Positions 6,405 to 21,741 of a stretch of 41,838 nt of DNA are shown one piece after another; positions within the stretch are counted from its first letter, which is position 1; each line of letters opens with the position of its first letter. The stretch spans positions 1 to 41,838 of the forward strand of contig NZ_DYHZ01000007.1 of the NCBI RefSeq assembly GCF_020723905.1, in the 5' to 3' direction. The position numbers and the translations under genes were made by a program. This DNA comes from Anaerolinea thermophila. GTDB lineage: Bacteria; Chloroflexota; Anaerolineae; Anaerolineales; Anaerolineaceae. Under the pieces are notes generated by a model that was not told where the DNA came from, searched no databases, and saw only the letters and a program-made list of their open reading frames with translations.

Positions 6405-7262
6405 ATGACGACCGTCAAGAATCCATCCTATCCCATCACCTACCTGCGTCCCGCCAGTGGCTGGATGCCGCTGGATCTTGCTGCTCTGTGGGAATATCGT
6501 GAGTTGATTTATTTCCTTACCTGGCGGGATATCCGTGTGCGTTACAAGCAAGCCCTGCTGGGAGTGGGGTGGGCAATTCTTCAGCCGGTCTTTCACATGG
6601 TGCTGTTTACGGTCATCTTTGGACGCCTTGCCGGGCTGAAGCCCGATGCCGGCATTCCTGAGCAACTCTATCCCATCTTTTCCTTTGCAGCGTTGTTGCC
6701 CATGCAGTTGTTCCAGCAAGCCCTGCAGCGTTCCAGCATCAGTCTGGTACAGAACGCCAACCTGCTGACCAAAATTTATTTCCCGCGGCTGATCATTCCC
6801 CTTTCAGCGGTGGGTGCGGCGCTGGTAGATTTTTTCTTTGCCATGCTGGTGTTGGGCGGGCTGATGGTGGCGTATCAGGTGCCGGTGACTCCCCGCCTGC
6901 TCTGGCTCATTCCGTTGACCTTGCTGGCGGTGCTGGCGGCGCTGGCAATCGGGTTGTGGCTTTCAGCGCTGAATGTGCAGTACCGGGATGTTCAGCATAT
7001 GATCCCGTTCCTCATTCAGGCATGGATGTATGCCTCTCCGGTAGCCTATTCCATTGATGTGATTCCGCAGTCGGGTATCTGGCGCTGGGTGTATGCGCTC
7101 AATCCCATGGCGGGGGTCATTCAGGGGTATCGTTGGGCATTGCTGGATGCCACCCCGCCGGCGGGGTTCCTGTGGGTTTCGGTTGCAGTGGTAGCCGTTT
7201 TGCTGATTTCCGGGTTGTATTACTTCCGCGCCATGGAGCGCACCTTTGCGGATATGGTGTAA
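6405..7262 (+). CDS. wzm: Polysaccharide ABC exporter, permease
   Basis: This 285-residue ABC-2 type permease has about six hydrophobic helices. Near the N-terminus are LWEYRELIYFLTWRDIRVRYKQALLGVGWAILQP-type features, which are typical of Wzm/KpsM/TagG exporters (the cytoplasmic amphipathic start and the first membrane helix). The C-terminal MAGVIQGYRWALL segment also fits. It forms the membrane channel for a lipid-linked polysaccharide or teichoic-acid-like polymer. The next gene, one base after the stop, encodes the ATPase partner. Its place directly after the fcl-like gene sets the export mode of the whole locus. Family is sure; the exported polymer is not known. Confidence 0.9.
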   Translation: MTTVKNPSYPITYLRPASGWMPLDLAALWEYRELIYFLTWRDIRVRYKQALLGVGWAILQPVFHMVLFTVIFGRLAGLKPDAGIPEQLYPIFSFAALLPMQLFQQALQRSSISLVQNANLLTKIYFPRLIIPLSAVGAALVDFFFAMLVLGGLMVAYQVPVTPRLLWLIPLTLLAVLAALAIGLWLSALNVQYRDVQHMIPFLIQAWMYASPVAYSIDVIPQSGIWRWVYALNPMAGVIQGYRWALLDATPPAGFLWVSVAVVAVLLISGLYYFRAMERTFADMV

Positions 7263-7263
7263 G

Positions 7264-8520
7264 ATGAGCGATTGGGCAATTCGAGTTGAGCGATTGGGAA
7301 AACAATACCGCATTGGAACACTGAACAGTCAGCGTTACCAGACACTGCGCGACGCGATTACCGGTGTGTTCGATCGTTCTGCGCGCTCGGCTGTTTCCGG
7401 GCGTATCTGGGCATTGAAGGATGTGTCCTTTGAAGTGCGTCAGGGACAGGTGCTTGGAATCATCGGGCGCAATGGCGCGGGCAAGAGCACCCTGCTCAAA
7501 ATCCTCTCGCGGGTCACCCAGCCCACCGAGGGTTTTGGAGAAATCCGCGGGCGGGTTGGCTCTTTGCTGGAAGTAGGTACCGGCTTTCATCCTGAACTGA
7601 CCGGGCGGGAGAATATTTACCTGAACGGCGCCATCCTGGGCATGAAACGGCGCGAAATCGAGCGCAAGTTTGATGAGATTGTGGAGTTCGCCGAAGTCGG
7701 CGCTTTCATTGATACCCCCGTAAAGCGCTACTCCAGCGGGATGTATCTGCGTCTGGCGTTTGCTGTGGCTGCACATCTCGAACCGGAGATTCTGGTGGTG
7801 GATGAAGTGCTGGCGGTGGGTGATGCCGAGTTTCAGCGCAAATGCCTGGGAAAGATGAGCGATGTGGCTCAGGAAGGGCGCACGGTGCTTTTCGTCAGCC
7901 ACAACATGAGCGCCATTCTGCGCCTGACACAGGAAGCGCTGGTGATCGAAAAAGGTCGTTTGAAGTTGCGTGCGCCTACTGCCGAAGCCGTGGATTACTA
8001 CCTCTCGCAGGGGTATTCGCAGGAAGGGCAACGCACCTGGGATGCCGATGAAATCCCGCCCGAGGCGGCGCCTTTCCGCCCTCGTGCTGTGCGTGTACTC
8101 AGCGCAGAAGGCAGGGTGACCGATACAGTGCGATCTACTGAGCCCTTCCATATTGAAGTGGAGTACGCTCTGGATGCGCCTATCACCGGCTTGCGGGTGG
8201 GCATTTACCTGATGAGTATGCGCGGGGAGTACATCTTCACCTCTTTCGATACCGATGATCCCCAGCGCTTTGAGCGTTACCCGGTGCGGCAGCCCGGGGT
8301 GTATGTCAGCCGGTGTACTGTCCCGGCAGACTGGTTGAATGAAGGGCGTTACGCCGTGGGAATCAATGCCAGTTCCTTCCGGGTGCGCCGCTATTTTCAG
8401 GATGATCAGGCATTAAGTTTTATGGTGGATGCTACCGGCGCTCCCGGCACGCAGTGGACGGAAGCACGGTTGGGTCCATTGCGTCCGCGTCTGGACTGGA
8501 AAATTGAGGTGAAAGCATGA
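7264..8520 (+). CDS. wzt: Polysaccharide ABC exporter, ATPase with C-terminal glycan-binding-type domain
   Basis: The protein has 418 residues from the ATG at 7264, which follows the permease stop by one base. The ATPase domain (about 1-245) has Walker A GRNGAGKS (68-75), the YSSGM signature (156-160), Walker B ILVVDE (176-181) and a SHNM H-loop. A second domain (about 260-418) is beta-rich and corresponds in position to the carbohydrate-binding domain of Wzt from E. coli O8/O9a. That domain recognises the modified, non-reducing end of the finished chain. This implies that the exported glycan here carries a terminal cap. The methyltransferase two genes downstream is a candidate capping enzyme. 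The 3' end overlaps the next gene by four bases. Confidence 0.9.
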   Translation: MSDWAIRVERLGKQYRIGTLNSQRYQTLRDAITGVFDRSARSAVSGRIWALKDVSFEVRQGQVLGIIGRNGAGKSTLLKILSRVTQPTEGFGEIRGRVGSLLEVGTGFHPELTGRENIYLNGAILGMKRREIERKFDEIVEFAEVGAFIDTPVKRYSSGMYLRLAFAVAAHLEPEILVVDEVLAVGDAEFQRKCLGKMSDVAQEGRTVLFVSHNMSAILRLTQEALVIEKGRLKLRAPTAEAVDYYLSQGYSQEGQRTWDADEIPPEAAPFRPRAVRVLSAEGRVTDTVRSTEPFHIEVEYALDAPITGLRVGIYLMSMRGEYIFTSFDTDDPQRFERYPVRQPGVYVSRCTVPADWLNEGRYAVGINASSFRVRRYFQDDQALSFMVDATGAPGTQWTEARLGPLRPRLDWKIEVKA

Positions 8521-10133
8521 AAGCGGCAGGCAAGCAAGTCATCAAACACTTTTTGGGGCAGATTCCATTCACTGCCGAACTGTACTGGCTCTTGCGTCAG
8601 AATGGCAAGCCTATTCGCACGCGCTTTAGCCTGAAGCACCTGCAAACTGAACTGCCCGAGATGGTGCGTCAGGCGGAAGCCATGCATCGGGTAGTGGGAA
8701 CCAGCAAGAACGTCTTTATTTTTGCCACCCTCCATTACTGGATTGAACACACGGCTTTGTTAGGAATGGCGCTGGCGGCGCAGGGGCATCGGGTGACTCT
8801 CGGCTTTTTGCCTTATGCGGAGTGGCAGGAACCCATTAACCTGTTCGATTTGCGTCGGCAAAATGCCTATGCCCGTAAGGTGTTAAGCGGTGCAGAGCCC
8901 TGGCTCCATCCGGTTTCTTTCCTGAACACCCGCCCGACGGTGGTACGCCTGCCCGATGAAGTCATGGATGCAGTACGTCTGGTATCCAATTACGATGCTC
9001 AGTACACCCTGCAGGTGGAAGAGGTTGATCTGGAGAGCGACATTTACAAACTGCGCCTGGAGCGCAATACCGAAGCCGCCCGCACGCTGTACCCTTACCT
9101 CAAAGCCAACCGTCCGGATGTCATCATCGTTCCGAACGGGACCATTCAGGAACTGGGCGTAGCCTACCGGATTGCCCGTATCCTGAACATTCCTGTGGTC
9201 ACGTATGAATTTGGCGATCAGCGTCAGCGGATCTGGCTGGCGCAAAATGCCGAGGTCATGCGGCAGGAAACCGATGCGCTCTGGGCAGCCCATCAGGGCG
9301 CTTCGCTGACCCCGGAGCAACTGGAGCGGATGCGGGCGCTGTTCATGGCGCGTCAGCGTGGGGCGTTGTGGGAAAACTTTGCCCGTCAGTGGCAGGGCAC
9401 ACCGGCACAGGGCGGCAATACCATCCGCCAGCAATTGCATCTGGACGAACGACCTCTGGCGCTTCTGGCAACGAATGTGCTGGGCGATAGTCTTACCCTG
9501 GGACGTCAGGTCTTTTCCCAGAGCATGGCGGAATGGATCGAGCGCACGGTGCAGTACTTTGCCGGACGTCCCGATGTGCAACTGGTCATTCGTATTCACC
9601 CCGGCGAGGTGCTTACCCATGGGCAGTCCATGATGGACGTGGTCAAGCGCGTTCTACCGCGCCTGCCGGAACACATCCGCCTGATTGGACCGAAAGAAAA
9701 GATCAATACCTACGATCTGGTCGAGGTGGCGGATGTAGGGCTGGTTTATACCACCACCGTAGGCATGGAAATGGCGATGTGTGGCTTGCCGGTCATTGTC
9801 AGCGGGCAAACACACTACCGCGGCAGAGGTTTTACCTTCGATCCCGATTCGTGGGTGAGTTACTACAAACTGCTGGGACAAATTTTAAGCAAACCCTCCG
9901 CGTTCCGTCTCAGCCGCCAGCAGGTGGAAAGCGCCTGGGAGTACGCTTACCGCTTCTTCTTCGATTACCCCCGTCCTTTCCCGTGGCATCTGGTGCGCGC
10001 ATGGGAAGATTACAAAGCCCGCCCGCTTCAAAGCGTGTTGAGCGATGAAGGACTGGCGCAGTACGGCGATACCTTCCGCTATCTGGTGGGTGATGAAATC
10101 AACTGGGAACGCATCCTTCAGGAGAATGCATGA
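8517..10133 (+). CDS. Capsule-type glycosyltransferase (GT-B like)
   Basis: This 538-residue cytoplasmic protein resembles capsule polysaccharide biosynthesis proteins. The first half has a Rossmann-like segment (KNVFIFATLHYW, about 64-75) and VIIVPNGT. The second half holds the better conserved part: LVIRIHPGE (about 358-366) followed by INTYDLVEVADVGLVYTTTVGMEMAMCGLPVIV (about 393-425), the HP and TxGxE-type nucleotide-sugar site seen in KpsC/KpsS-like and related enzymes. It overlaps wzt by four bases (ATGA) and the methyltransferase gene by four bases. A second gene of the same general type lies at 24711-26321. KpsC/S enzymes use CMP-Kdo, so a CMP-ulosonic acid donor is possible here, but donor and acceptor are not known. 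Confidence 0.65.
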   Translation: MKAAGKQVIKHFLGQIPFTAELYWLLRQNGKPIRTRFSLKHLQTELPEMVRQAEAMHRVVGTSKNVFIFATLHYWIEHTALLGMALAAQGHRVTLGFLPYAEWQEPINLFDLRRQNAYARKVLSGAEPWLHPVSFLNTRPTVVRLPDEVMDAVRLVSNYDAQYTLQVEEVDLESDIYKLRLERNTEAARTLYPYLKANRPDVIIVPNGTIQELGVAYRIARILNIPVVTYEFGDQRQRIWLAQNAEVMRQETDALWAAHQGASLTPEQLERMRALFMARQRGALWENFARQWQGTPAQGGNTIRQQLHLDERPLALLATNVLGDSLTLGRQVFSQSMAEWIERTVQYFAGRPDVQLVIRIHPGEVLTHGQSMMDVVKRVLPRLPEHIRLIGPKEKINTYDLVEVADVGLVYTTTVGMEMAMCGLPVIVSGQTHYRGRGFTFDPDSWVSYYKLLGQILSKPSAFRLSRQQVESAWEYAYRFFFDYPRPFPWHLVRAWEDYKARPLQSVLSDEGLAQYGDTFRYLVGDEINWERILQENA

Positions 10134-10993
10134 GCGGAGAACCGGTTCGTCAACAGGTGCGATCATTCTACGATGAAATTGGCTGGCAGAAGGAAGCCGA
10201 TGGGCTGTATCAGAACGCCCGCTACGAGGATTTGCGTCCGGTTTCGGCGGAGTATATTCACCGCTGTCATCTGCGTGTCAATCGTCACCTCGCGCCTGAA
10301 GGGCGTTATCTGCTGGATGCCGGTTCAGGTCCGGTACAATATCCTGAATATCTCACCTACTCGCAGGGCTACCAGTACCGTGTCTGCGCCGATTTGTCCA
10401 TCGTTGCCCTGCAGGAAGCCCGCCGCCGTCTGGGCAACCATGCGCTGTGCGTGGTGGCAGATGTAGCGCATCTCCCCTTTGCCCCGGAAGCCTTTGATGG
10501 CGTGGTTTCTCTGCACACCCTGCATCATTTGCCGCTGGAGGAACAGCCCGGTGCGTATCAGGAACTGTTCCGCGTGTTGAAGAGCGGGAAGAAGGGTGTG
10601 GTGGTCAACGGATGGACAGACTCGCCACTGATGAGACGCTGGGCGCCGCTGGTCACACTGGCGGAGCGTCTGGGGACATGGCTGGCGCGTCTGCGCGGAC
10701 GGGCTGTGTCCGCAGAAAAGAAACCCGGAGCCACTCCCTCCCGTCCAACCGGGACGTTCGTGCGCAAACTGGATGCCGCCTGGCTCCGGGAACATCTGGA
10801 GGGCAAAATTCCTTACGAAATTTATGTCTGGCGCAGTGTCAGTGTGCGCTGGTTACGGGCTTTGATACACCCCATCACGGCGGGAAAATGGTGGCTCAAA
10901 TGGCTGTACTGGCTGGAAGAGCGGAATCCGCGCTGGTATGGGGAAAACGGACAGTATCCGATGATCGTGATTTCGAAAGAACGCAGGAGTTAA
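10130..10993 (+). CDS. SAM-dependent methyltransferase
   Basis: A 287-residue class I methyltransferase. Motif I is LLDAGSGPVQ (61-70), an acidic residue (Asp88) ends the second strand, VVADVAHLPFAPEAFDGVVSLH covers motifs II-III, and an LHHLP loop plus FRVLKSGKKGVVV complete the fold. Substrate cannot be read from the sequence. The C-terminal 100 residues are basic and amphipathic, which would suit membrane or glycolipid contact. Coupled by an ATGA overlap to the capsule-type glycosyltransferase and close to wzt, it may methylate a sugar, perhaps capping the chain before export as known for WbdD-type systems. That role is inference. Confidence 0.75.
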   Translation: MSGEPVRQQVRSFYDEIGWQKEADGLYQNARYEDLRPVSAEYIHRCHLRVNRHLAPEGRYLLDAGSGPVQYPEYLTYSQGYQYRVCADLSIVALQEARRRLGNHALCVVADVAHLPFAPEAFDGVVSLHTLHHLPLEEQPGAYQELFRVLKSGKKGVVVNGWTDSPLMRRWAPLVTLAERLGTWLARLRGRAVSAEKKPGATPSRPTGTFVRKLDAAWLREHLEGKIPYEIYVWRSVSVRWLRALIHPITAGKWWLKWLYWLEERNPRWYGENGQYPMIVISKERRS

Positions 10994-10997: not shown

Positions 10998-12005
10998 ATG
11001 GACTGGAGTCAAAAAGTTGTCCTGATTACCGGTGGTACCGGTTCCTTTGGCAAGAAATTCGTTGAAATCATGTTGAATGAGTATCATCCCGCCAAGTTGA
11101 TTATTTACAGTCGGGATGAACTGAAACAGCATGAGATGCGACAGGCGGGGTTCGATCACCCTTCCTTGCGTTACTTCCTCGGCGATGTACGCGACAAAGA
11201 CCGTCTGCGGCGCGCTTTTGAAGGGGTGAACATTGTGGTGCATGCCGCTGCACTCAAACAGGTGCCCGCCTGCGAGTACAACCCCATGGAAGCCATCAAG
11301 ACCAACATCCTCGGTAGCAGCAATGTAGTAGACGCCGCTCTGGATACCGGTGTGGAGAAAGTGCTGGCGCTCAGCACCGATAAAGCCGTCAATCCGGTCA
11401 ACCTGTATGGCGCAACCAAACTGGCGGCGGAGAAACTCATCATCCAGTCGAACGCCTATGCGGGTGGTAAGGTGACCCGCCTCTCATGTGTACGTTACGG
11501 CAACGTGGTTGGAAGCCGGGGGAGTGTGGTGCCGGTTTTCCTCAAACAGCGCGAGAACGGCAAAGTCACCGTCACCGATGAACGCATGACCCGTTTCTGG
11601 CTGACGCTGGAGCAGGGGGTGCGCTTTGTCATTCGCAGTATTGAACAAATGCGCGGTGGCGAAGTCTTTGTTCCCAAGATTCCCAGCATGTCCATTATGG
11701 ATCTGGCGCGGGCAGTGGCGCCGGAGAATGACATTGAAATCATCGGGATTCGACCCGGTGAAAAACTGCACGAGGTGCTGGTTTCTGAAGATGAAGCCCG
11801 CCATACGGTGGAACTGGAGGATATGTTCGTGGTCATGCCTGCCGAAGCCATCTGGTTTGGGCTGGACTGGCATGATAAGGGCAAACCTCTGCCCGACGGC
11901 TTCCGTTATGCCAGCAATAACAATTCCGAGTGGCTGACCATCGAACAGATTCGCGAGATGATTCGCCCCATTGAAGAAGCCCACCGTAAAGGCACGCTGG
12001 AGTAG
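10998..12005 (+). CDS. pseB: UDP-GlcNAc 4,6-dehydratase (inverting), PseB-like
   Basis: This 335-residue SDR of the PseB/FlaA1 family would convert UDP-GlcNAc to the 4-keto-6-deoxy-L-arabino sugar nucleotide (dehydration with C5 inversion). The NADP-binding motif TGGTGSFG is at 11-18. Asp128-Lys129 (STDKA) and Tyr137-x3-Lys141 (LYGATK) are the catalytic set of FlaA1. Further family features are AALKQVPACEYNP and RYGNVVGSRGSVVP. An AGGAG site precedes the ATG. It is followed by an RmlD-like reductase rather than the PseC aminotransferase of the pseudaminic acid pathway, and by an SAF-containing NeuB. So the keto group is more likely reduced than aminated. Known PseB/reductase pairs lead to L-sugars such as L-QuiNAc or L-FucNAc, an alternative fate. 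Confidence 0.9.
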   Translation: MDWSQKVVLITGGTGSFGKKFVEIMLNEYHPAKLIIYSRDELKQHEMRQAGFDHPSLRYFLGDVRDKDRLRRAFEGVNIVVHAAALKQVPACEYNPMEAIKTNILGSSNVVDAALDTGVEKVLALSTDKAVNPVNLYGATKLAAEKLIIQSNAYAGGKVTRLSCVRYGNVVGSRGSVVPVFLKQRENGKVTVTDERMTRFWLTLEQGVRFVIRSIEQMRGGEVFVPKIPSMSIMDLARAVAPENDIEIIGIRPGEKLHEVLVSEDEARHTVELEDMFVVMPAEAIWFGLDWHDKGKPLPDGFRYASNNNSEWLTIEQIREMIRPIEEAHRKGTLE

Positions 12006-12011
12006 AAACGA

Positions 12012-12947
12012 ATGGGAGAACGGCGTATACGTCTGCTGGTGACGGGAGCGAGCGGTTTGCTGGGCATCAACCTGTGCCTCGATGCAGTGGCTGATTTCGA
12101 GGTCACCGGGGTGGTGAACAGCCGCCGTCTGGCAGGCGCGCCGTTTCCTCAAATCCAGGTAGATTTCACACAGCCTGGTTCTGCGGCGAAGATCATTGAG
12201 GATATTTGCCCGCAATGGGTGGTGCATTGTGCTGCGCTGGCAGATCTGGACGCCTGCGAGAAAAATCCGGACCTTTCGACACGCCTGAATGCCCATCTGC
12301 CCGGAGAGGTGGCAGAAGCCTGCCGAAAGGTGGGAGCGCGCCTGGCACATATTTCCACCGATGCCGTGTTCGACGGCGAACGCGGCGGTTACAGCGAAGA
12401 AGACCAGCCCAACCCGCAAAGTGTTTACGCCCGCGATAAATGGCTGGGAGAGCAGGCGGTTCTGCAAGCCAATCCGCAGGCGATTGTGGCACGGGTGAAT
12501 TTCTATGGGTGGAGTTTACTGGGTCAGCGCAGTCTGGCGGAAAAATTTTTCTATACCCTATCGGCGGGCAGGGGCATGATGGGCTTTACCGATGTGTATT
12601 TCTGCCCGCTGGTTAACCGGCACCTTGCACATATTTTGCTGGAAATGCTGGAGAAAGGGTTGGAAGGACTGTACCACGTCTTCAGCAGAGAATGCCAGAG
12701 CAAATATGCCTTTGGGGTGGCGCTGGCGAGACGCTTTGGACTGGATGCCGGGCTGATTCGTCCCGTGTCTGTACAGGAAGCCGGTCTTTCAGCGCGCCGC
12801 TCTCCCAATCTGACGATGCGTGTAGATAAAATTGAGGCGGCGTTAGGGCATCCCATGCCCGGGCAGGAAGAGGAACTGGAAGCGTTCTATCGTCTGTATC
12901 AGGAGGGCTACCCTCAACGATTGCGGACGATGGTTGCTGTGGAGTAA
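12012..12947 (+). CDS. RmlD-like sugar-nucleotide 4-ketoreductase
   Basis: This 311-residue extended SDR is most like dTDP-4-dehydrorhamnose reductase (RmlD). The nucleotide-binding motif TGASGLLG is at 11-18, HCAALADLDACE near 72-83 and STDAVFDG at 115-122. The catalytic pair is Tyr139/Lys143 (YARDK) with a conserved LGE following. No rmlA, rmlB or rmlC lies nearby, so dTDP-rhamnose synthesis is unlikely. The gene begins seven bases after the PseB-like gene and probably reduces the 4-keto product of that enzyme. A reductase at this step is known in UDP-L-QuiNAc and related pathways (WbvR-type). What is odd is that a NeuB follows, which suggests feeding a 4-hydroxy rather than 4-amino 6-deoxy sugar into ulosonic acid synthesis. 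Confidence 0.75.
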   Translation: MGERRIRLLVTGASGLLGINLCLDAVADFEVTGVVNSRRLAGAPFPQIQVDFTQPGSAAKIIEDICPQWVVHCAALADLDACEKNPDLSTRLNAHLPGEVAEACRKVGARLAHISTDAVFDGERGGYSEEDQPNPQSVYARDKWLGEQAVLQANPQAIVARVNFYGWSLLGQRSLAEKFFYTLSAGRGMMGFTDVYFCPLVNRHLAHILLEMLEKGLEGLYHVFSRECQSKYAFGVALARRFGLDAGLIRPVSVQEAGLSARRSPNLTMRVDKIEAALGHPMPGQEEELEAFYRLYQEGYPQRLRTMVAVE

Positions 12948-12982
12948 GGTCTAGGTTTGCAGGCTGGAAAGGAGAGTTTCAC

Positions 12983-14050
12983 ATGGATATTCAAATTGGC
13001 AATCGTCTGGTTGGTTTGAAGCACCCCACCTATTTCATCGCCGATATCGCCGCTAATCACGATGGGAGTCTGGAACGGGCAAAGCAGTTGATTCGCCTGG
13101 CAAAAGAAGCCGGAGCGGATGCCGCAAAGTTTCAGAATTTCCGTGCCCCAAAAATTGTTTCGGATTACGGTTTCAAGTCTCTGGGCGGGCAGAAGTCACA
13201 TCAAGCCACGTGGCGAAAGAGTGTCTTCGAGGTCTATCAGGATGCGTCTATCCCCTTTGAATGGACGTATGAACTGAAAGCCGTATGCGATGAAGTGGGT
13301 ATTGACTATTTCTCTTCGCCCTATGACTTTGAAGCCACCGATTTCCTTGTGCCTTACATGCCTGCCATCAAAATCGGTTCTGGAGAAATCACCTGGCATG
13401 AAGCGCTGGAACACATCGCCCGCAAGGGATTGCCCGTCATCCTCGCGACCGGCGCGTCTGACATTGGCGAAGTTGCCGCGGCAGTGCGTCTGATTCTCTC
13501 GATTAACCCGCAACTGGTGTTGATGCAGTGCAATACCAATTACACAGCCAGTCTGGAGAACTTCAACCATGTGCATCTGAACGTGCTCAAAACCTACGGG
13601 TTGATGTTCCCGGACGTGGTGCTGGGACTGTCCGATCACACCCCCGGACATGCTGCCGTGCTGGGTGCGGTGGCGCTGGGTGCACGGGTCATTGAAAAAC
13701 ACTTTACCGATGACAACAACCGCGAAGGTCCCGACCATAAGTTTGCCATGAACCCCGATACCTGGGCGCAAATGGTGGAGAACACCCGTCAGTTGGAACG
13801 GGCACTGGGCTCGGCGGACAAATTCGTTGCCGAAAACGAGCAGGAAACGGTGGTATTGCAACGGCGGTGCCTGCGCGCGGCGCGGGATCTGCCTGCCGGA
13901 ACGGTCATCACCCGTGAGGATCTGGACGTTCTGCGTCCGGCGCCCCGTGATGCCATCATACCCTATGACATTCCGCGCGTGCTGGGCAAACGGCTGATTG
14001 TGGATAAAGTTGCCGGGCAGGAACTGCGCTGGACCGATCTGGGAGAGTAA
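12983..14050 (+). CDS. neuB: NeuB-family ulosonic acid synthase with SAF domain
   Basis: The protein has 355 residues and condenses a hexose derivative with phosphoenolpyruvate. The NeuB barrel (about 14-280) shows ADIAANHDG (20-28), AKFQ (48-51), KIGSGEI (130-136), ATGAS (155-159), QCNTNYTA (182-189), LSDHTPGH (216-223), EKHF (238-241) and GPDHKFAM (249-256). Residues about 290-350 form the SAF/antifreeze-like lid, with LPAGTVITREDLDVLRP. Several signature spots differ from classical NeuB (ADIAANHDG for AE-x-G-x-NHNG; NTNY for TSxYP), placing it in a distinct subfamily. Preceded by an AAAGGAG site and a 35-base gap. The neighbouring PseB-like, RmlD-like and SpsF-like genes suggest a 6-deoxy-hexosamine substrate, giving a 9-deoxy ulosonic acid. 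Product is inferred, not known. Confidence 0.85.
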   Translation: MDIQIGNRLVGLKHPTYFIADIAANHDGSLERAKQLIRLAKEAGADAAKFQNFRAPKIVSDYGFKSLGGQKSHQATWRKSVFEVYQDASIPFEWTYELKAVCDEVGIDYFSSPYDFEATDFLVPYMPAIKIGSGEITWHEALEHIARKGLPVILATGASDIGEVAAAVRLILSINPQLVLMQCNTNYTASLENFNHVHLNVLKTYGLMFPDVVLGLSDHTPGHAAVLGAVALGARVIEKHFTDDNNREGPDHKFAMNPDTWAQMVENTRQLERALGSADKFVAENEQETVVLQRRCLRAARDLPAGTVITREDLDVLRPAPRDAIIPYDIPRVLGKRLIVDKVAGQELRWTDLGE

Positions 14051-15193
14051 ATGCGCGTATTGTACTTCACCCGCGCCTACACCCCCCATGATCACCGCTT
14101 TCTTTCAGCACTGGCTGAAAGCGGACAGGAGGTGTTTTACCTGCCGCTGGAAAATGATGGCAAAGTGCTGGAAGACCGCCCGCTTCCCCCGCAGGTGGAG
14201 CGTCTCCACTGGCGGAGTGGGACGGGACGTTTCCGCTGGCGGGATGCGCCGGCGCGGGTGCTGGAATTGCGTCGTATGCTCCGCGCGTTAAAGCCGGATG
14301 TGGTTCACGCAGGTCCGGTGCAAACCTGTGCCTTTCTGTCGGCGCTGGCAGGGGTACACCCGCTGGTGACCATGTCCTGGGGTTCGGATTTGCTCAGAGA
14401 TGCTTACTCCAGCGGGTGGATGAAACAGGTGACCCGTTTTACCCTGCGCGCCAGCGATGTGCTGGTGGGCGATTGTCTTGCTGTCCGTGATGCCGCTGTG
14501 GAGTTTGGCTTTTCTCCTGAGAATGTGGTGCTCTTCCCCTGGGGTGTGGATCTGAATCGCTTCAAGCCTGCCGAAACGCCCTCTGCCCTGCGCGAGCGGC
14601 TGGGCTGGCAGGATGCCTTTGTGGTGCTGTCCCTGCGTTCATGGGAGCCAATCTACGGGGTGGAGACGGTGGTGGAAGCCTTTGCGCAAGCCATCCAGGA
14701 AGAACCGCGTCTGCGTCTGATTTTGCTGGGGCAGGGTTCGCTGGCGGGGCGCATTCAACAGCGCCTGCATCAGAAACAACTTCATGATGTGGTGTATCTG
14801 GGCGGACAGGTCAATCAGGAGGATTTACCACGCTTTTATCAGGCGGCAGATTTGTACGTCAGCGCTTCTCACTCCGATGGCTCTTCGGTCTCGTTGATGG
14901 AAGCGCTGGCAAGTGGATTGCCCGTGCTGGTTTCGGACATCCCCGGCAATCGCGAGTGGGTTGTGCCGGGTGAGGTGGGCTGGCTCTTCCCCGTTGACGA
15001 TGCATACACGCTGGCACAGGGCATTTTGCGGGCAGTGCGTGAGCCGCAAACGTTAGCAGAAATGCGCCTCCGCGCCCGCCACCTTGCCGAAGAACGCGCC
15101 GACTGGCGGAAAAACTTCCCGAAACTGCTGGATGCCTATTGCATGGCACTTCGGCGGGTGGGAAAAATGGTGGAGGAAAAGCAAACCGCATGA
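14051..15193 (+). CDS. GT4-family glycosyltransferase
   Basis: A 380-residue GT-B glycosyltransferase. The N-terminal domain begins MRVLYFTRAYTPHDHRFLSAL, and includes KPDVVHAGPVQT (about 79-90) and VTMSWGSDLL. The C-terminal GT4 domain (about 185-360) starts VVLSLRSWEPIYGVETVVEAF and includes YLGGQVNQEDLPRFYQAADLYVS and SHSDGSSVSLMEALASGLPVL. The last is the usual E-x7-E nucleotide-sugar motif, with Asp at the first acidic position. It follows the neuB stop directly, with a GGGAGAG site inside the neuB end, and overlaps spsF by four bases. The donor is unknown; retention of anomeric configuration is expected for GT4. Confidence 0.88.
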   Translation: MRVLYFTRAYTPHDHRFLSALAESGQEVFYLPLENDGKVLEDRPLPPQVERLHWRSGTGRFRWRDAPARVLELRRMLRALKPDVVHAGPVQTCAFLSALAGVHPLVTMSWGSDLLRDAYSSGWMKQVTRFTLRASDVLVGDCLAVRDAAVEFGFSPENVVLFPWGVDLNRFKPAETPSALRERLGWQDAFVVLSLRSWEPIYGVETVVEAFAQAIQEEPRLRLILLGQGSLAGRIQQRLHQKQLHDVVYLGGQVNQEDLPRFYQAADLYVSASHSDGSSVSLMEALASGLPVLVSDIPGNREWVVPGEVGWLFPVDDAYTLAQGILRAVREPQTLAEMRLRARHLAEERADWRKNFPKLLDAYCMALRRVGKMVEEKQTA

Positions 15194-15951
15194 GCAACAC
15201 AGTCATCATCATTCAAGCCCGTATGACATCCAGCCGGCTGCCCGGTAAAGTCCTGCTGGATTTGGGCGGACAACCCGCGCTGATGTGGTGTGTGGAACGC
15301 TGTAAGCAAGCCCGCTCCGCACAGCGGGTGGTGGTAGCCACCACGACCAATGAATCAGATGAACCTGTGGTAGAACTGTGCCATCAACGTGGCTGGGAGG
15401 TCTTCCGCGGCAGTGAATTCGATGTGCTGGATCGTTTTGTGCAGGCGGCGCGTTGGGCAAATGCAGATGTGGTGGTGCGCGTGACCGCCGATTGTCCGCT
15501 GATTGACCCTGCCGAAGTGGATCGGGTGGTGGATGCCTTTTTTGCCACCGGCGCCGATTTTGCTGCCAATCGCCTGCCGCCTCCGTGGAAGCGCACCACG
15601 CCCGTGGGGCTGGATACTGAAGTGTGCAGGATGACCGCACTGGAACGGGCATGGCGTGAAGCCACCCGGAAATTCGAGCGCGAACACGTCATGCCTTACC
15701 TGTATGATGAGCCAGGGCGCTTCCGCGTCCATATTGCCGACTGGGAGCGGGACTTAAGCCATCACCGCTGGACGCTGGATACCCCTGAAGATTACCAGTT
15801 CCTGCGCGAGGTTGTCCGCCGGCTGGATCATCGCATGGATGTGCGCTGGCAGGATGTGCTGGCTTTGCTGGAAGCCGAACCTGAATTAATGCAGATCAAT
15901 GCAGGTGTGCGCCATAAGTCTGGTCTGGAACACGATGCCCGCATGAAATGA
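15190..15951 (+). CDS. spsF: SpsF-type cytidylyltransferase (CMP-ulosonic acid synthesis)
   Basis: The protein has 253 residues and belongs to the nucleotidyltransferase (GT-A like) group with SpsF, PseF and KdsB relatives. The N-terminus IIQARMTSSRLPGKVLLDLGG (about 5-25) is the nucleotide-binding loop; VVRVTADCPLIDP (about 97-109) is the metal-binding strand; WTLDTPEDY lies near the C-terminus. The ATG at 15190 overlaps the GT4 stop codon. An upstream in-frame start would overlap that gene more and lacks a ribosome-binding site. With the NeuB two genes upstream this makes an SpsE/SpsF-like pair, so it likely activates that ulosonic acid as a CMP sugar in the cytoplasm. Substrate specificity is not visible. 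Confidence 0.8.
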   Translation: MSNTVIIIQARMTSSRLPGKVLLDLGGQPALMWCVERCKQARSAQRVVVATTTNESDEPVVELCHQRGWEVFRGSEFDVLDRFVQAARWANADVVVRVTADCPLIDPAEVDRVVDAFFATGADFAANRLPPPWKRTTPVGLDTEVCRMTALERAWREATRKFEREHVMPYLYDEPGRFRVHIADWERDLSHHRWTLDTPEDYQFLREVVRRLDHRMDVRWQDVLALLEAEPELMQINAGVRHKSGLEHDARMK

Positions 15952-15958: not shown

Positions 15959-16867
15959 ATGAGTCTGATTACCATTTTCACTGCTCCCAAACCCTTTACC
16001 GACCCACACATTGCGCTGATTCAGCACAATGCCATCCGTTCCTGGCTGGCGCTGGGTGAGCAGGTAGAGGTCATTCTGCTCGGCGAGGAAGAAGGTCTGG
16101 CGGAAGCGGCGGCGCTGTATGGCGTCAGGCATCTTCCGCAGGTGCAACGTACCCCTGCCGGCACGCCGCTGGTCTCGTCCATGTTTGCACTGGCGCGGGA
16201 ACATTCCACCAGTCCTCTGTTGTGTTGCGTGAATGCCGATATTCTGCTCACCCCTGACCTGCTCACGGTCGGGCAGACCATGCTGGAACGATATGCGCGC
16301 TTTTTAGTGGTAGGGCAACGCTGGGATCTGGATGTGCGCGAACCGCTGGATTTTTCTTCAGGTTGGGCGGGGCGCCTGCGTCAGCGTGTTCAGCAGGAAG
16401 GCAAGTTGCACAAAGCCACCGGTTCGGATTACTTTCTCTTCCCGCGCGGATGCTTTACGGATATGCCCGCGTTTGCCATTGGACGGGCAGGCTGGGACAA
16501 CTGGATGATCTACTCCGGGCGCGCTCAGGGCTTTCCGGTGGTAGATGCCACTCATGACCTGTTCATTGTTCATCAGAATCACGATTACCGCCACCTTCCC
16601 GGCGGACAGCCCCACTATAAACACCCGGAGACGCTGGAGAACGTGCGTCTTGCCGGTGGCAGACGAGCCATTTTTGAACTCCCTGATGTCAGCCATCGGC
16701 TGGTAAATGGGAAACTGGTACGTCCGCCGTTGACCTGGCAACGCTTCTGGCGTGAGGTGGAGGTTTTCCCGCTGGTAAAATGGCATTCGTACCCACTGGC
16801 GGTAGGGATGTACTTCTTGCTCCACCCGAAAAAAGCCTACCGCGAGTATCGTGAAGGGAGACTATAA
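15959..16867 (+). CDS. Putative GT-A type glycosyltransferase
   Basis: A 302-residue protein with a GT-A-like N-terminal half. It opens with SLITIFTAPKPFTDPHIALIQHNAIRSW, then has a probable nucleotide-sugar acidic motif in LLCCVNADILL (about 81-91), and a later GSDYFLFPRG segment (about 156-165). An AGWDNWMIY motif follows (about 178-186), resembling the acceptor/catalytic acid segment of such enzymes. The C-terminus has a basic, hydrophobic stretch (about 270-295) that may touch the membrane. It starts seven bases after spsF. I recognise the general fold but not the exact family. It probably adds a sugar to the growing glycan. Confidence 0.6.
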   Translation: MSLITIFTAPKPFTDPHIALIQHNAIRSWLALGEQVEVILLGEEEGLAEAAALYGVRHLPQVQRTPAGTPLVSSMFALAREHSTSPLLCCVNADILLTPDLLTVGQTMLERYARFLVVGQRWDLDVREPLDFSSGWAGRLRQRVQQEGKLHKATGSDYFLFPRGCFTDMPAFAIGRAGWDNWMIYSGRAQGFPVVDATHDLFIVHQNHDYRHLPGGQPHYKHPETLENVRLAGGRRAIFELPDVSHRLVNGKLVRPPLTWQRFWREVEVFPLVKWHSYPLAVGMYFLLHPKKAYREYREGRL

Positions 16868-17827: not shown

Positions 17828-19262
17828 AACGATTTTCATCTCTGCCGATCACGGGCTTTCGATTGTCTATTTTCTGCAAACGGATGTCCTGCCCACGTTG
17901 CTGGAAAGCGGCGCTCGTGTAGTCGTCCTGACCGATGACGGTATCCGCGATCAGATTGCCGCCAGGTTTGCCCAGCCCAATCTGATAATCGAGGGGTTGC
18001 GCTTCCGTCAGTGCCGCGAGTATTTTGAGAAAAAGGATCACTCTCTGCAGTACTGGGTGCATTTCCTGCGCTGGATGGGTGGTTCCAATCGCATTAACAC
18101 CAACGCCATGGACGGGCATCTGCGCCAGATGGGACATGAGGCATCGCCACGCGCCAAACGTCTCATGCCTGTCATCCGCGGCTTGACTTACCTTCTGCGC
18201 CGTTCCCGGCTTGCCCGGCAGGCTCTGGTCAACTTTCAGCGCCGCTACACGCCCAATATCTATGCCGATTTATTTGAGAAGTATCAGCCGTCGCTGGTGG
18301 TTGCCAGTACCCCGGGCTGGCGCTGGGATCGTTACCTGCTCCGCGAAGCCGCCGCGCGCGGTATTCTTACCGCGGCAGTGATTGTCGGCTGGGACAACCC
18401 GTCCAGTTACCGGTTGCCAGGTGCACCGGTGGATTGGATCACCTGCTGGAGCGAGATTCAAAAGCAGGAACTGGTGCTGGGTTCGGATTGGAAGCCCGAA
18501 CGGGTTCATGTGGGTGGCATTCCTTCTTATGATGGTTATTTCCGTGGCACGTGGAAAATGTCCCGTGAGGAATACTTCCGCCTGCATGGGCTGGATCCGA
18601 ACCGGAAACTGCTTTCTTATGCCTGTTCGTTTGTCACCTTCTCACCCAACTTTGCCAATATCCGTGCGCTGGCTGAACTGGTGAATCAGGATGCCCTGGC
18701 AGAACCGGTGCAGTTACTCATCCGCCTGCACCCCAATCATTTCCAGCCGGGGTCGTTGTACGAGCAGGAAGCCAACCGCGTTCGAGAACTGATACGCGAC
18801 ATGCCCCATGTGCATCTGGTGGAGCCGGTGCCGCTGGGCGGAGAACTGGGGTATTATTCCGGCGAGGATATGCCCGAAAAAGCCTCCATGATGGCGTATT
18901 CGGATGTCTTTCTGACGGTGTATTCCACCATGGTGGTGGAAACCGCCATTCACGACCGACCCATTGTCAGTGTGTGTATTGACGAGCCGGGCGGATGGAA
19001 CACGCCGGGCAAATTTTCGCTTTCTTTGCAGGAAATTGGGGAATGGCCCACTCACCTGCGTTTCCGTGCTGCGGGGGCGGGCAGGGTGGCATACAACGCC
19101 GGGCAGTTGAAAGAAATCCTTAATCTGTATCTGCGTGCGCCCGAAACCGATTCTGCCCAGCGCCGTCAGTTTATTCAAGATGAATGTACCTTTACCGATG
19201 GTTCGGCTGGACGGCGCACGGGGGAGTTTCTTTGCAGGTTGTTGGAAAGAGGTGAGGCATGA
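17817..19262 (+). CDS. Putative GT-B glycosyltransferase / CDP-glycerol transferase-like protein
   Basis: The protein has 481 residues from the ATG at 17817, which overlaps the previous gene's end by 11 bases. The N-terminal domain begins KTIFISADHGLSIVYFLQTDVLPTLLESG, a GT-B start. The C-terminal domain has LLSYACSF (about 262-269), LLIRLHPNHF (about 299-308), and ASMMAYSDVFLTVYSTMVVETAIHDRPIVSVCID (about 357-390). This HP plus STMVVE arrangement is shared with capsule, Kdo and CDP-glycerol:glycerophosphate transferases. It likely adds a sugar or polyol phosphate to the chain. The 3' end overlaps the next gene by four bases (ATGA). Exact class is unsettled. Confidence 0.6.
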   Translation: MTDKTIFISADHGLSIVYFLQTDVLPTLLESGARVVVLTDDGIRDQIAARFAQPNLIIEGLRFRQCREYFEKKDHSLQYWVHFLRWMGGSNRINTNAMDGHLRQMGHEASPRAKRLMPVIRGLTYLLRRSRLARQALVNFQRRYTPNIYADLFEKYQPSLVVASTPGWRWDRYLLREAAARGILTAAVIVGWDNPSSYRLPGAPVDWITCWSEIQKQELVLGSDWKPERVHVGGIPSYDGYFRGTWKMSREEYFRLHGLDPNRKLLSYACSFVTFSPNFANIRALAELVNQDALAEPVQLLIRLHPNHFQPGSLYEQEANRVRELIRDMPHVHLVEPVPLGGELGYYSGEDMPEKASMMAYSDVFLTVYSTMVVETAIHDRPIVSVCIDEPGGWNTPGKFSLSLQEIGEWPTHLRFRAAGAGRVAYNAGQLKEILNLYLRAPETDSAQRRQFIQDECTFTDGSAGRRTGEFLCRLLERGEA

Positions 19263-20230
19263 AAGTCCTGATTGCCGGCTTTGGTTCAATTGGCAGACGC
19301 CACCTGCGCAATCTGCGCGCGCTGGGTGTAGAGGATATTCTGCTTTTGCGGTCGCACCGCAGTACCCTGCCTGATGATGAAATTGCCGGGTTGCCTGTCG
19401 AAACCGACATCCATGCAGCGCTGGCGCACCGCCCGGATGCTGTGATTGTTGCCAATCCCACGGCACTGCATTTGCAGGTTGCCATTCCCGCCGCGGAGCA
19501 GGGGTGCTCCATTCTCATGGAAAAGCCCATTGCGGACTCCACCGAAGAGATTCCTGCCCTGCGGCAGGCGCTGGAAAGCGGTGGGGGGCAGTTGCTGGTG
19601 GGCTTTCAGTTCCGATTTCATCCCACGTTACAGAAGGCGGCGCAGTTACTGGCGGATGGGGCAATTGGACGGGTGGTCTCGGTGCGTTCACACTGGGGAG
19701 AGTACCTGCCCAACTGGCATCCATGGGAAGATTATCGCCAGAGTTATGCTGCGCGTCCTGAACTGGGCGGCGGGGTGATTCTCACCCTGTGCCATCCATT
19801 TGATTATCTGCGCTGGCTGGCGGGAGAGTATGTGATTGCCTGGGCGGGAGGTGGTACTCTGGGCGATCTGGAATTACAGGTTGAGGATTGTGCCGAAATC
19901 GGGTTGAGATTCCACAGCGGCGCGGTGGGCACTCTGCATCTGGATTACCTGCAGCAACCCCCCAGCCACACACTGGAAATCATTGGTACGATGGGGACAT
20001 TGCAGTGGGATAATTCAGATGCCACCCTGCGGGTCTTTCGTGCGGGCGAGAGCGACTGGCAGGTCTTCCATGCGCCGGAAGGGTTTGAGCGCAACTGGCT
20101 CTTCCTGGAGGAAATGCGCCATTTCCTGGCAGTTGCTCGCCGGGAGGTGGTGCCGGTGTGCACGCTGGAAGACGGCGTGCGCGCACTTCAACTGGCGCTG
20201 GCGGCGCGTGAAGCCCTGAAAGCAATATAA
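19259..20230 (+). CDS. Gfo/Idh/MocA-family oxidoreductase
   Basis: A 323-residue NAD(P)-dependent sugar oxidoreductase. The Rossmann start is MKVLIAGFGSIGRRHLRNLRALG (GxGxxG at about 7-12), followed by VIVANPTALHLQVAIPAAEQG and the family's MEKPIADS motif (about 86-93), whose Lys is usually catalytic. The C-terminal alpha/beta domain has GVILTLCHPFDYLRWLAGE, with a His in the catalytic region. Such enzymes oxidise or reduce hydroxyl groups of free or nucleotide-linked sugars. Context suggests a sugar modification in the set B ulosonic acid genes or its precursor; similar oxidoreductases accompany SDR, NeuA and NeuB genes in flagellin glycan loci of Campylobacter. Substrate unknown. Confidence 0.8.
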   Translation: MKVLIAGFGSIGRRHLRNLRALGVEDILLLRSHRSTLPDDEIAGLPVETDIHAALAHRPDAVIVANPTALHLQVAIPAAEQGCSILMEKPIADSTEEIPALRQALESGGGQLLVGFQFRFHPTLQKAAQLLADGAIGRVVSVRSHWGEYLPNWHPWEDYRQSYAARPELGGGVILTLCHPFDYLRWLAGEYVIAWAGGGTLGDLELQVEDCAEIGLRFHSGAVGTLHLDYLQQPPSHTLEIIGTMGTLQWDNSDATLRVFRAGESDWQVFHAPEGFERNWLFLEEMRHFLAVARREVVPVCTLEDGVRALQLALAAREALKAI

Positions 20231-20231
20231 T
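20226..20231 (+). promoter_or_regulatory. possible internal -10 box before the lipoprotein pair
   Basis: TATAAT overlaps the stop of the oxidoreductase gene, 27 bases before the lipoprotein start. No -35 hexamer is seen at proper spacing, so this may be chance in an A/T-rich stop-codon region. If real, it would let the lipoproteins be made apart from the rest of the locus. Confidence 0.22.
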
Positions 20232-20257
20232 AGCCTGCCGAAAAGGAGAGACTCGGT

Positions 20258-20992
20258 ATGAAACATGTACGACTTCGTGGGTGGATGGGACTGCTGATGC
20301 TGGCAATGCTGTGGTTAAGTGCCTGTGTTTCGCCTGCACCGACAGCCACGCCTGCCCCTCTGCCCACCGATACCCCTCAACCTACGGTGACGGTCCCCCC
20401 TACCGCTACTCTCACGCTCACCCCAACCACCACCACAACGCCAACGTTGACCCTGACCCCGACGCTGACCCCTACCCTGGCGCCGTCCTTTGAGCAGGCG
20501 AAGGTCATTGAATTGCGTCTGGGGGTTGGCGGATATCAGATGGTTGTGGTGGTGCCTTCTCTCCATGTACCATATAACCTGATTCTGGGCGGAATTCAAT
20601 TTACCTGTACATTTGATGAGAAGTATGCGGAGCGTTTGTTCTGTTTCGGGCTGGCAAAGCCACCGCTGGATCAATCGCTCACTCTGGCTTTCCTGGACCC
20701 CGAAACGGGAAAAGTGGTTTATCAGGGTAAAATCATTCTCGATTCGCGTGCCTTGCCCACGCCGGTGCCTTCTGGATACAGTCAGTATGATTGCCCGGAC
20801 CGCGGCAAGAACGTTACCTGTGAAATGGAGTGTCGTATAGCACCGGATGGCAATCCCTGTGTGGTTGCCACCTGTTTCGATGCCTGTGGCCCTTACTACT
20901 CGGTTCACACCTGTCCGGAGAATGTTTCTCAGTGGACGCTGTGTGATGATAATCTCTGGCGGGAGATGAAATCCCGCTATAACATCCCATAA
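20258..20992 (+). CDS. Cys-rich lipoprotein, first of a tandem pair
   Basis: This 244-residue lipoprotein has a signal peptide with basic start and LSAC lipobox (Cys23), so it is expected to be lipid-anchored on the outer face of the cytoplasmic membrane. A Thr/Pro-rich spacer (about 27-75) follows, then a folded domain (about 80-244) with ten cysteines. The domain includes EKYAERLFC, LFLDPETGK-like strands, YDCPDRGK, CEMECRIAPDG and CFDACGPYYSVHTC. The even cysteine count suggests five disulfides, hence extracytoplasmic folding. The next gene encodes a paralogue with all ten cysteines conserved. I know no family for the domain. An AAAAGGAGAG site precedes the ATG. Its place inside a glycan locus suggests binding, anchoring or processing of the surface glycan. 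Confidence 0.72.
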   Translation: MKHVRLRGWMGLLMLAMLWLSACVSPAPTATPAPLPTDTPQPTVTVPPTATLTLTPTTTTTPTLTLTPTLTPTLAPSFEQAKVIELRLGVGGYQMVVVVPSLHVPYNLILGGIQFTCTFDEKYAERLFCFGLAKPPLDQSLTLAFLDPETGKVVYQGKIILDSRALPTPVPSGYSQYDCPDRGKNVTCEMECRIAPDGNPCVVATCFDACGPYYSVHTCPENVSQWTLCDDNLWREMKSRYNIP

Positions 20993-21006
20993 AAAGGTAG
21001 TTGGCA

Positions 21007-21741
21007 ATGAAGAAGTTGTGGGTGATGTTTGTTTTGATTGTGCTCTTCCTGCAAGCCTGTCAGCCTCAGGCAGTGGCAGTGCCTTCTCCGCAGTCGCCAG
21101 AACCAGCGGCAACGCTTCGTCCTTCGGCAACTGTTCTCCCTTCGGCTACGGCAACATGGACGCCTACCATGACGCAAACACCCACCCTGACCCCCACCGT
21201 TACGCAGATTCCCACTGCCACGCCGGTGGCACAGTTTGAAGATTTGAAAATCCTGGTCCTGGAAAACAAACTGGGCGGCTGGAGTATGCAATGGGTTCTC
21301 CCGGGTGTGCAGGTGCCGCTGAAAATGATGCTGGACAACCGCGAATACACCTGCTCGGTGGATGCGAAATATCCCGATCGGTTGTTCTGTCAGGGACTGG
21401 CTCAGCCCGCGCTGGATCGTCCGTTGACGCTGGTTTTTCTGAATCCGGAATCCGGTGTAGAGATATACCGTACGAGTTTTATCATTCCAGCGGCGCTGAT
21501 GTCCCCTCCTACTCCAGTGGGATATGCTCAAACCAATTGCCCTGACCGGGGAAAGAAGGTATCCTGTGAAACAGAATGCCGGATTGCCCCGGATGGCACG
21601 CCCTGCATTGTAGCAACCTGTGTGGATGCCTGCGGTCCGTATTTCTCGGTGCATTCCTGCCCCGACGACATGCCGCTCCCCTCGCCTTCATGTAATGCTG
21701 AACAGTGGGCGGCGATGAAAAAGAAGTACCAGATTCCGTAA
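21007..21741 (+). CDS. Cys-rich lipoprotein, second of a tandem pair
   Basis: The protein has 244 residues from the ATG at 21007 (an in-frame TTG two codons upstream is less likely). Its signal peptide ends at a LQAC lipobox (Cys18), then a Thr/Pro spacer (about 30-75) and a domain aligned with the preceding protein. Shared features are a KYPDRLFC motif, LDRPLTLVFLNPESG, GY-x-Q-x-x-CPDRGK, CETECRIAPDG and CVDACGPYFSVHSC, again with ten cysteines at matching positions. The pair clearly arose by duplication but has diverged in strands outside the cysteines, so they may have different ligands. It starts 14 bases after the first lipoprotein, with an AAAGG site. Function unknown. Confidence 0.72.
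   Translation: MKKLWVMFVLIVLFLQACQPQAVAVPSPQSPEPAATLRPSATVLPSATATWTPTMTQTPTLTPTVTQIPTATPVAQFEDLKILVLENKLGGWSMQWVLPGVQVPLKMMLDNREYTCSVDAKYPDRLFCQGLAQPALDRPLTLVFLNPESGVEIYRTSFIIPAALMSPPTPVGYAQTNCPDRGKKVSCETECRIAPDGTPCIVATCVDACGPYFSVHSCPDDMPLPSPSCNAEQWAAMKKKYQIP

Follow-up and report, generated by a model that had tools for sequence, protein, structure and literature searches.

The window analysed here is a stretch of 41,838 nt of Anaerolinea thermophila DNA (assembly GCF_020723905.1, contig NZ_DYHZ01000007.1, positions 1 to 41,838), which carries a set of adjacent genes that probably specify a branch of nonulosonic acid biosynthesis that proceeds by reduction. An initial annotation had recognised genes for a PseB, an RmlD-like protein, a NeuB and an SpsF, and all four were confirmed at their places on the + strand. 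Between the NeuB and SpsF genes lies a GT4 glycosyltransferase gene that the annotation did not include, and which belongs to the same set. The five genes are as follows.

10998-12005, + strand: PseB, a uridine diphosphate (UDP)-N-acetylglucosamine (UDP-GlcNAc) 4,6-dehydratase of the predicted C5-inverting type (TIGR03589, 499.4 bits against a cut-off of 407.75)
12012-12947, + strand: RmlD-type nucleoside diphosphate (NDP)-4-keto-sugar reductase (PF04321, 193.5 bits)
12983-14050, + strand: NeuB subfamily A (NeuB-A), an ulosonic acid synthase with a SAF domain (PF03102 and PF08666)
14051-15193, + strand: GT4 glycosyltransferase, the fifth member of the set (PF00534/PF13439)
15193-15951, + strand: SpsF-type cytidylyltransferase (PF02348, 114 bits; the nearest solved structure, 6oew, is a cytidylyltransferase), for which an alternative open reading frame (ORF) is also open from a TTG codon at 15139

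The linkage between these genes is strong, and was established independently of the argument made in the initial annotation. Named loci were taken from the best 80 of at least 587 relatives of NeuB-A, whose titles all name Anaerolineae, Anaerolineaceae, Anaerolineales, Chloroflexi, Chloroflexota or genera such as Anaerolinea, Levilinea and Leptolinea. Carriers of the set include the cultured genera Levilinea, Leptolinea, Longilinea, Ornatilinea and Pelolinea, as well as Anaerolinea thermolimosa (L042). Some of these stretches are just 3 to 8 kb long, and 51 were counted as having enough flanking sequence (3 kb or more ahead of NeuB and 8 kb or more behind it). The RmlD, GT4 and SpsF genes accompany NeuB-A in all 51, and PseB in 49, with all four present in 49; the two loci lacking a nearby PseB (L064 and L114) come from genomes encoding one elsewhere, 65% and 73% identical respectively. 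Hence the proposal that the genes form one set, for which a co-occurrence search had been suggested, was upheld: with three partners found in every locus having enough flank, the association exceeds chance. None of the 80 loci yielded a PseC- or PseG/H-like gene in tblastn searches (E value 1e-10, at least 30% coverage), nor a DegT family gene at an E value of 1e-6.

The NeuB, RmlD and PseB were also sought in a sample of 400 genomes from the phylum, each search scoring no more than five candidates in a genome. NeuB matches at an E value of 1e-40 were present in 57 genomes; in 34 the identity is 65% or above, and the next match is at 41%. Every one of the nine sampled genomes of the window's own family has this close form, as do 23 of 24 in another family of its order, whereas the two genomes that represent two other families lack it. 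RmlD was matched at 1e-55 in 33 genomes, all among the 34 with the close NeuB, whilst PseB was matched at 1e-80 in 41: the same 33, a genome from another class (G222) and seven others. Six PseB loci outside the group (L133-L138; the seventh such genome, G008, was left out) provide a natural contrast, as they carry matches to PseC and PseG/H alongside SpsF, and their NeuB is just 35-40% identical.

The locus had been described as containing no aminotransferase, acetyltransferase or UDP-sugar hydrolase, and a Pfam scan of 30 window proteins (E value 0.001; ORFs such as 30309-31223, 31767-33674, 33664-35205 and 37539-38441 were not included) bore this out, finding no DegT/PLP aminotransferase, acetyltransferase or Glyco_tran_28_C (PseG-type) domain. 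Genes of the pseC, pseH and pseG types elsewhere in the genome, which the initial annotation had named, in combination with true pseudaminic acid on the cells, as evidence that would overturn its reading, were sought in the 34 phylum genomes with the close NeuB, and none of PseC (TIGR03588), PseH (TIGR03585) or PseG (TIGR03590) was found over its cut-off in any of them. Beneath these thresholds, DegT relatives of PseC (E value 1e-60) occur in 33 genomes, weak GNAT matches to PseH in 27 and weak PseG matches in two, the window's own genome having no PseG match at 0.001. NeuC (TIGR03568, E value 1e-30) was found in two of the 34 and not in the window's own genome, which makes N-acetylmannosamine an unlikely substrate for NeuB-A there.

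The window NeuB had also been assigned to a divergent subfamily, and it falls below the cut-offs of both relevant equivalogs (NnaB, 274.7 against 399.65 bits; PseI, 238 against 340.25). Judged by its sequence it qualifies as a member of the NeuB family, having the NeuB and SAF domains and the residues expected to bind metal and phosphoenolpyruvate. In an alignment of 85 NeuB-A sequences (the window, the 80 named loci and four other genomes; numbering follows Neisseria meningitidis NeuB), the equivalents of Q55, K129, S132, S213, H215, E234, H236, D247 and R314 are invariant; the last is placed at the N-acetyl group in PMC6795526. Two positions constant in the 39 other synthases of the alignment, and agreeing in three reference structures, are altered: that of Glu25 is Asp in 84 of 85 NeuB-A sequences, and that of Pro187 is Thr in all 85. 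Likewise, the position of Phe112 is Tyr and that of Asn184 is Thr, within the motif NTNYT, in every sequence, and that of Ser154 is Ala in 81. A tree of 55 rows, including 20 of the 85 NeuB-A sequences and three of ten from the second module discussed below, placed the NeuB-A rows in one clade (100/100). This groups with Campylobacter jejuni PseI and four PseC-linked rows at 94/78, a value below the tool's star level and involving a PseI flagged as a long row, whilst a further two PseC-linked rows fall with SpsE. The sequence evidence therefore supports a separate synthase subfamily with its own signature (ADIxANHDG/NTNYT), which offers a simple marker for such loci.

The two enzymes encoded ahead of NeuB-A retain their catalytic motifs. 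The closest solved structure to the dehydratase is FlaA1 (2gn4, 381 bits), compared with 236 bits for the 4,6-dehydratase/5-epimerase 4j2o and 232 for Pen (6bwc), and the motif [ST]DK..YxxxK was identified in 64 of 65 PseB sequences, the remaining one being unmatched by the pattern. Pdeg, a retaining dehydratase whose motif is given as DE rather than DK, is 46% identical to PseB; inversion at C5 by the window enzyme is hence likely rather than proven. A competing view raised at the outset, that dehydratase and reductase make a separate L-sugar such as UDP-L-N-acetylquinovosamine (UDP-L-QuiNAc), is weakened and now appears unlikely, as the dehydratase is of the PseB rather than the FnlA type, scoring 244 bits against the FnlA model (TIGR04130) where the cut-off is 730. 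A further point against that view is that no UDP-GlcNAc 2-epimerase family domain was matched by Pfam among the 30 window proteins, though the product of 8517-10133 has a fold likeness to such enzymes.

The RmlD-type protein scores 182 bits against the rmlD equivalog, for which the cut-off is 224.05, and was rejected as the rhamnose enzyme of the cell because a canonical RmlD sits elsewhere in the genome (C13:125449, 304.6 bits). All 21 aligned rows, G222 among them, share Ser115-Thr116-Asp117 and the catalytic Tyr139 and Lys143, and STD and YxxxK motifs are present in all 72 RmlD sequences (68 by pattern and four by eye). Its 13 sequence matches in the PDB at an E value of 1e-10 are deoxythymidine diphosphate (dTDP)-4-dehydrorhamnose reductases, a dTDP-glucose oxidoreductase and methionine adenosyltransferase 2 subunit beta.

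Versions of the set were also found beyond the group. In G222 the genes lie side by side: PseB, RmlD, NeuB and GT4 are 55%, 32%, 63% and 33% identical to those of the window, and the cytidylyltransferase is not matched by the SpsF query. Between PseB and this cytidylyltransferase is a truncated N-terminal piece of PseC containing two stops (L132:16513-17094); though a single case, this is how a locus would look had reduction replaced amination. The alphaproteobacterium Maritalea myrionectae has, on plasmid NZ_CP021332.1, a NeuB 56% identical and bearing the signature, a PseB 56% identical, an ABC exporter, a DUF4910 protein and an Antibiotic_NAT-type protein annotated as a HAD-IIIC phosphatase; no PseC or PseG match was found in the two Maritalea plasmid stretches searched. 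In one of the Maritalea loci (L169:3298-6045) a fusion protein combines an SpsF-type domain with an aldo/keto reductase and BNR repeats.

A further 21 loci lie on viral contigs (L170-L190), among which L173, L175, L176 and L179/L180 are near copies, L180 having been omitted from the alignment as a copy of L179. The Maritalea row and the 19 legible viral rows, of 20, keep the NeuB-A pattern with small departures; for L186, the start of the ORF shows ADIGANHDG. An RmlD-type gene immediately precedes NeuB-A in 17 of the 21, and a PseB or PseB-family gene is found within 4 kb in 16; a DegT gene is as close in just one (L186), and no PseG/H match was detected in any. PseB, RmlD, NeuB-A and a PseH-like GNAT form a cassette on viral contigs, which in L188 (2267-11448) lies among what appear by eye to be phage-tail-like genes, and in L186 (5472-7529) an SpsF-type domain is fused to a class III aminotransferase.

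As these genes occur together throughout one bacterial class and also on viral contigs, the set probably makes a relative of sialic acid whose genes are so far not known. From the gene identities, the intact motifs and the lack of PseC, PseH or PseG above cut-off in the genomes searched, we infer the reactions, the release from UDP, the stereochemistry and the product as follows. PseB would convert UDP-GlcNAc to a 4-keto-6-deoxy sugar inverted at C5, and the RmlD-type enzyme would then reduce the 4-keto group to a hydroxyl at the step where PseC would add an amine. The sugar would next be released from UDP by some further enzyme, condensed with phosphoenolpyruvate by NeuB-A and activated by SpsF with cytidine monophosphate (CMP), giving a CMP-linked 5-acylamino-3,5,9-trideoxynon-2-ulosonic acid. 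The product might be incorporated into a polysaccharide exported by the ABC transporter of the locus, possibly through the GT-B-type enzyme encoded at 8517-10133; GT4 may also take the UDP-sugar directly. We consider it reasonably probable that the set represents such a reductive branch, yielding an acid with a 7-hydroxyl group.

Three routes to nonulosonic acids have been described so far, those to neuraminic (Neu), legionaminic (Leg) and pseudaminic (Pse) acids. As the enzyme families encoded here are known and it is their order of use that falls outside these routes, the set would be a variant rather than a new kind of pathway. It resembles the CMP-pseudaminic pathway (PseB-PseC-PseH-PseG-PseI-PseF) in starting with PseB, using a NeuB-family synthase and ending with a cytidylyltransferase, SpsF-type enzymes also being found in the PseC-type loci of the phylum; it differs in that RmlD stands where PseC would, neither PseH nor PseG is found above its cut-off, and the synthase falls below that of PseI and has Gly at a position proposed to read C2. 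In Bacillus subtilis, spsC encodes an aminotransferase and spsG a hydrolase. The legionaminic pathway of that species (SpsM-C-D-G-E-F) is similar in its UDP-linked intermediates and SpsF cytidylyltransferase, whereas it includes an acetyltransferase gene, spsD, and the catalytic triad of SpsM contains Met in place of the Tyr of the present dehydratases. The UDP-QuiNAc pathway (Pdeg/Preq) shares the sequence of dehydratase and 4-ketoreductase, but Pdeg is retaining. FnlA-type pathways to UDP-L-N-acetylfucosamine or UDP-L-QuiNAc likewise proceed from a dehydratase to a 4-ketoreductase; FnlA, as the scores above indicate, is from another family. None of these UDP-QuiNAc, UDP-L-N-acetylfucosamine or UDP-L-QuiNAc pathways is known to include a NeuB or a cytidylyltransferase.

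The nearest chemical parallel is the lipopolysaccharide of Fusobacterium nucleatum 25586, which reportedly, to go by the title of a 2017 report by Vinogradov, contains a trideoxy acid together with N-acetyl-6-deoxy-L-altrosamine (6-deoxy-L-AltNAc). Both the predicted kind of product (3,5,9-trideoxy, its sole nitrogen at C5) and the expected hexose intermediate thus appear in that title; the N5 group of this acid is acetimidoyl, and no homology at the level of genes is claimed. Read from their prefixes, the L-gluco configuration and the L-manno configuration of Pse appear to differ just at C4, a centre made by NeuB, and so 6-deoxy-L-AltNAc, the sugar expected from PseB and a reductase, would be the precursor of trideoxy fusaminic acid. 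One trideoxy nonulosonic acid had been reported and the fusaminic gene cluster was uninvestigated as of 2020, according to PMC7371886, whilst the chirality of Fus5Ac is described as only tentatively assigned in a review (PMC10915975). The present set is hence a concrete gene-level candidate for a route to trideoxy acids. Among the matches listed in searches of the literature on Chloroflexi nonulosonic acids and on the gene combination, no paper on this set was found. A survey of sludge reports Pse/Leg, 2-keto-3-deoxynononic acid (Kdn) and N-acetylneuraminic acid (Neu5Ac) (PMC10483923). Surveys by 1,2-diamino-4,5-methylenedioxybenzene labelling that are limited to the masses of Neu5Ac, Kdn and Pse/Leg could miss the predicted product, at m/z 410.156.

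A number of observations weigh against this reductive route, one of them concerning the NeuB-A pocket. A 2020 modelling study proposed that one position reads the orientation of the C2 N-acetyl group, Gly indicating Neu or Leg and Phe129 of C. jejuni PseI indicating Pse; in the same proposal, C4-C6 are read by positions 70-85. Phe129 maps to N. meningitidis Gly133 in the present alignment, where the study prints 132, and this position is Gly, the Neu/Leg type, in all 85 NeuB-A sequences, compared with Phe in three, Tyr in two and Pro in one of the six PseC-linked rows. The 70-85 region, by contrast, appears PseI-like by eye, and on account of this combination the pocket is predicted to fit a sugar that is 6-deoxy and Pse-like at its far end and unusual around C1-C2; describing the product as pseudaminic acid with a 7-hydroxyl may therefore be too simple. 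Other adverse points concern gene content. No UDP-sugar hydrolase was found. An aminoglycoside-3-N-acetyltransferase-like gene lies near the set in 14 of the 80 Anaerolineae loci (e.g. L104 and L110) and, by eye, a GNAT-like gene precedes PseB in seven; a PseH-like GNAT is within 4 kb in 17 of the 21 viral loci, two of these scoring 51 and 55 bits against a cut-off of 93. The Maritalea plasmid has an NAD-dependent epimerase-type short-chain dehydrogenase/reductase (SDR) that is not detectably related to RmlD. In viral locus L186 a DegT gene (138 of the 423.5 bits of the PseC model) replaces RmlD between PseB and NeuB-A, with a GNAT some 6 kb away; L184 has a DegT gene 6.7 kb away, and L185 has none of PseB, RmlD, GNAT or DegT, with an SpsF-like match approximately 7 kb distant. 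Finally, contig C12 of the window's own genome encodes a PseC-like aminotransferase (353 bits against the 423.5) beside a LegB-like dehydratase.

Some of these genes might be taken to complete an ordinary pseudaminic or legionaminic pathway, with aminotransferase, acetyltransferase and hydrolase encoded elsewhere and RmlD serving another sugar. The window's own genome has three strong DegT genes, one WecE-like, one the gene beside the LegB-like dehydratase and one more; DegT relatives are as widespread as noted above, in 33 of the 34 genomes, and sub-threshold PseH-like GNATs are present in 27, and L186 pairs NeuB-A with PseB, DegT and its more distant GNAT. However, PseC, PseH and PseG are over cut-off in none of the 34 genomes, and the 80 loci lack PseC or PseG/H matches where RmlD is present in all 51 with enough flank. 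Moreover, the Pse-type loci of the phylum that were inspected keep those genes together, and with a different NeuB, so that we regard this explanation as very unlikely. As an observation on the C12 cluster itself (L122:7452-10314), its LegB-like dehydratase, sugar nucleotidyltransferase and PseC-like aminotransferase genes adjoin one for a priming glycosyltransferase, representing a separate route to a 4-amino sugar in this genome. Alternatively, the set might make two separate sugars, PseB and RmlD producing a UDP-linked 6-deoxy-N-acetylhexosamine, such as UDP-6-deoxy-L-AltNAc, for GT4, whilst NeuB and SpsF use an unrelated precursor. The constant presence of GT4 in the 51 loci and its retention in G222 would fit, since a member of this family would be expected to take a UDP-sugar; so too would the lack of any hydrolase found to free the sugar, and the co-occurrence of 6-deoxy-L-AltNAc and a trideoxy acid in F. 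nucleatum 25586, as far as the cited title goes. Yet no other source of hexosamine for NeuB is evident, NeuC being over cut-off in only two of the 34 genomes, not including the window's own, and on viral contigs the RmlD-type gene is immediately next to NeuB-A in 17 of 21 loci, none of the 21 having a listed GT4 match; on balance two independent products seem unlikely.

It is highly improbable that the RmlD-type enzyme is not a 4-ketoreductase at all but an epimerase, or the second half of a two-enzyme keto-sugar route like Pal of Bacillus thuringiensis. A two-enzyme (Pen, Pal) form of the PseB step is known, but the dehydratase is far nearer FlaA1 than Pen, none of the 13 PDB matches to RmlD is named Pal, and a PseC-type gene would still be required to reach Pse. 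The reductive route itself admits a bolder version, in which Anaerolineae, an alphaproteobacterial plasmid and viruses share a fourth class of nonulosonic acid synthesis, one based on reduction, that makes 3,5,9-trideoxy acids and dispenses with a separate UDP-sugar hydrolase, as the altered NeuB-A pocket would itself handle, or act on, the UDP-linked sugar; this we think quite unlikely.

Release from UDP was identified at the outset as the absent step, and so it remains, since no release enzyme was found and no candidate fits all contexts. Neighbouring genes of the set are listed below; many of the 80 loci are cut short, which bears on the counts given for the exporter and methyltransferase.

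6405-7262, + strand: ABC-2 permease (Wzm-like), part of the exporter of the same locus (PF01061; ORF cluster in 57 of the 80 loci)
7246-8520, + strand: ABC ATPase with a Wzt C-terminal domain (PF00005 and PF14524; 58 of 80)
8517-10133, + strand: GT-B-type enzyme, a candidate CMP-ulosonate transferase (PF05159 Capsule_synth, 22.1 bits against a cut-off of 20)
10130-10993, + strand: methyltransferase, 5' of PseB (PF08241; 54 of 80)
15959-16867, + strand: putative GT-A-type glycosyltransferase (no Pfam match; AlphaFold2 predicted local distance difference test score 92.4)

GT4 was rejected as a universal hydrolase, given that no match to it is listed in the 21 viral loci; a profile of its N-terminal domain, run against the ORFs of 34 loci, finds solely those of L140, L141 and L132. 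The product of 15959-16867 was likewise rejected as the absent hydrolase, having a GT-A-like fold: among the 50 listed PDB matches to its model, GT-A glycosyltransferases predominate and a few are CMP-sugar synthetases, the query template modelling (TM) scores being 0.34-0.50. The best fold match to the 8517-10133 enzyme, albeit a weak one (query TM 0.35), is the beta-Kdo transferase KpsC, followed by UDP-GlcNAc 2-epimerases, and relatives 32-35% identical are found near two PseC-type loci. The modelled fold fits a transferase of the CMP-ulosonate; the enzyme may instead free the sugar or change C2, the latter being a modification that would suit the Gly of NeuB-A. No match to it is listed in the viral loci, and therefore any role in sugar release would not be general.

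Other genes recur around the set in some lineages. A DUF4910/M28-like gene occurs in 13 of the 80 loci, and this and the aminoglycoside-3-N-acetyltransferase-like gene mostly lie between GT4 and SpsF; both types also adjoin NeuB-A in Maritalea (L167:8538-13858). A possible function for the pair is N-acyl exchange. Downstream of the set in L046, L083 and L085 are another NeuB (c37) and, by eye, a NeuC-like gene (c38).

The window also contains a second, different ulosonic acid module (19259-27019), which the initial annotation likewise did not include, encoding a MocA-type oxidoreductase, an SDR, a Capsule_synth protein, a third cytidylyltransferase, a NeuA-type domain fused to a KdsC/Kdn-9-phosphatase-like HAD domain, and a NeuB without a SAF domain. 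This second NeuB was rejected as a member of the set, as it is of another subfamily and has its own partners. Between the MocA and SDR genes of this module are two tandem, related lipoprotein-like genes (20258-20992 and 21001-21741), which have no Pfam match and appear by eye to share a Cys-rich C-terminus. Several of the viral contigs carry a second NeuB as well, similar to that encoded at 23825-24697 in the window.

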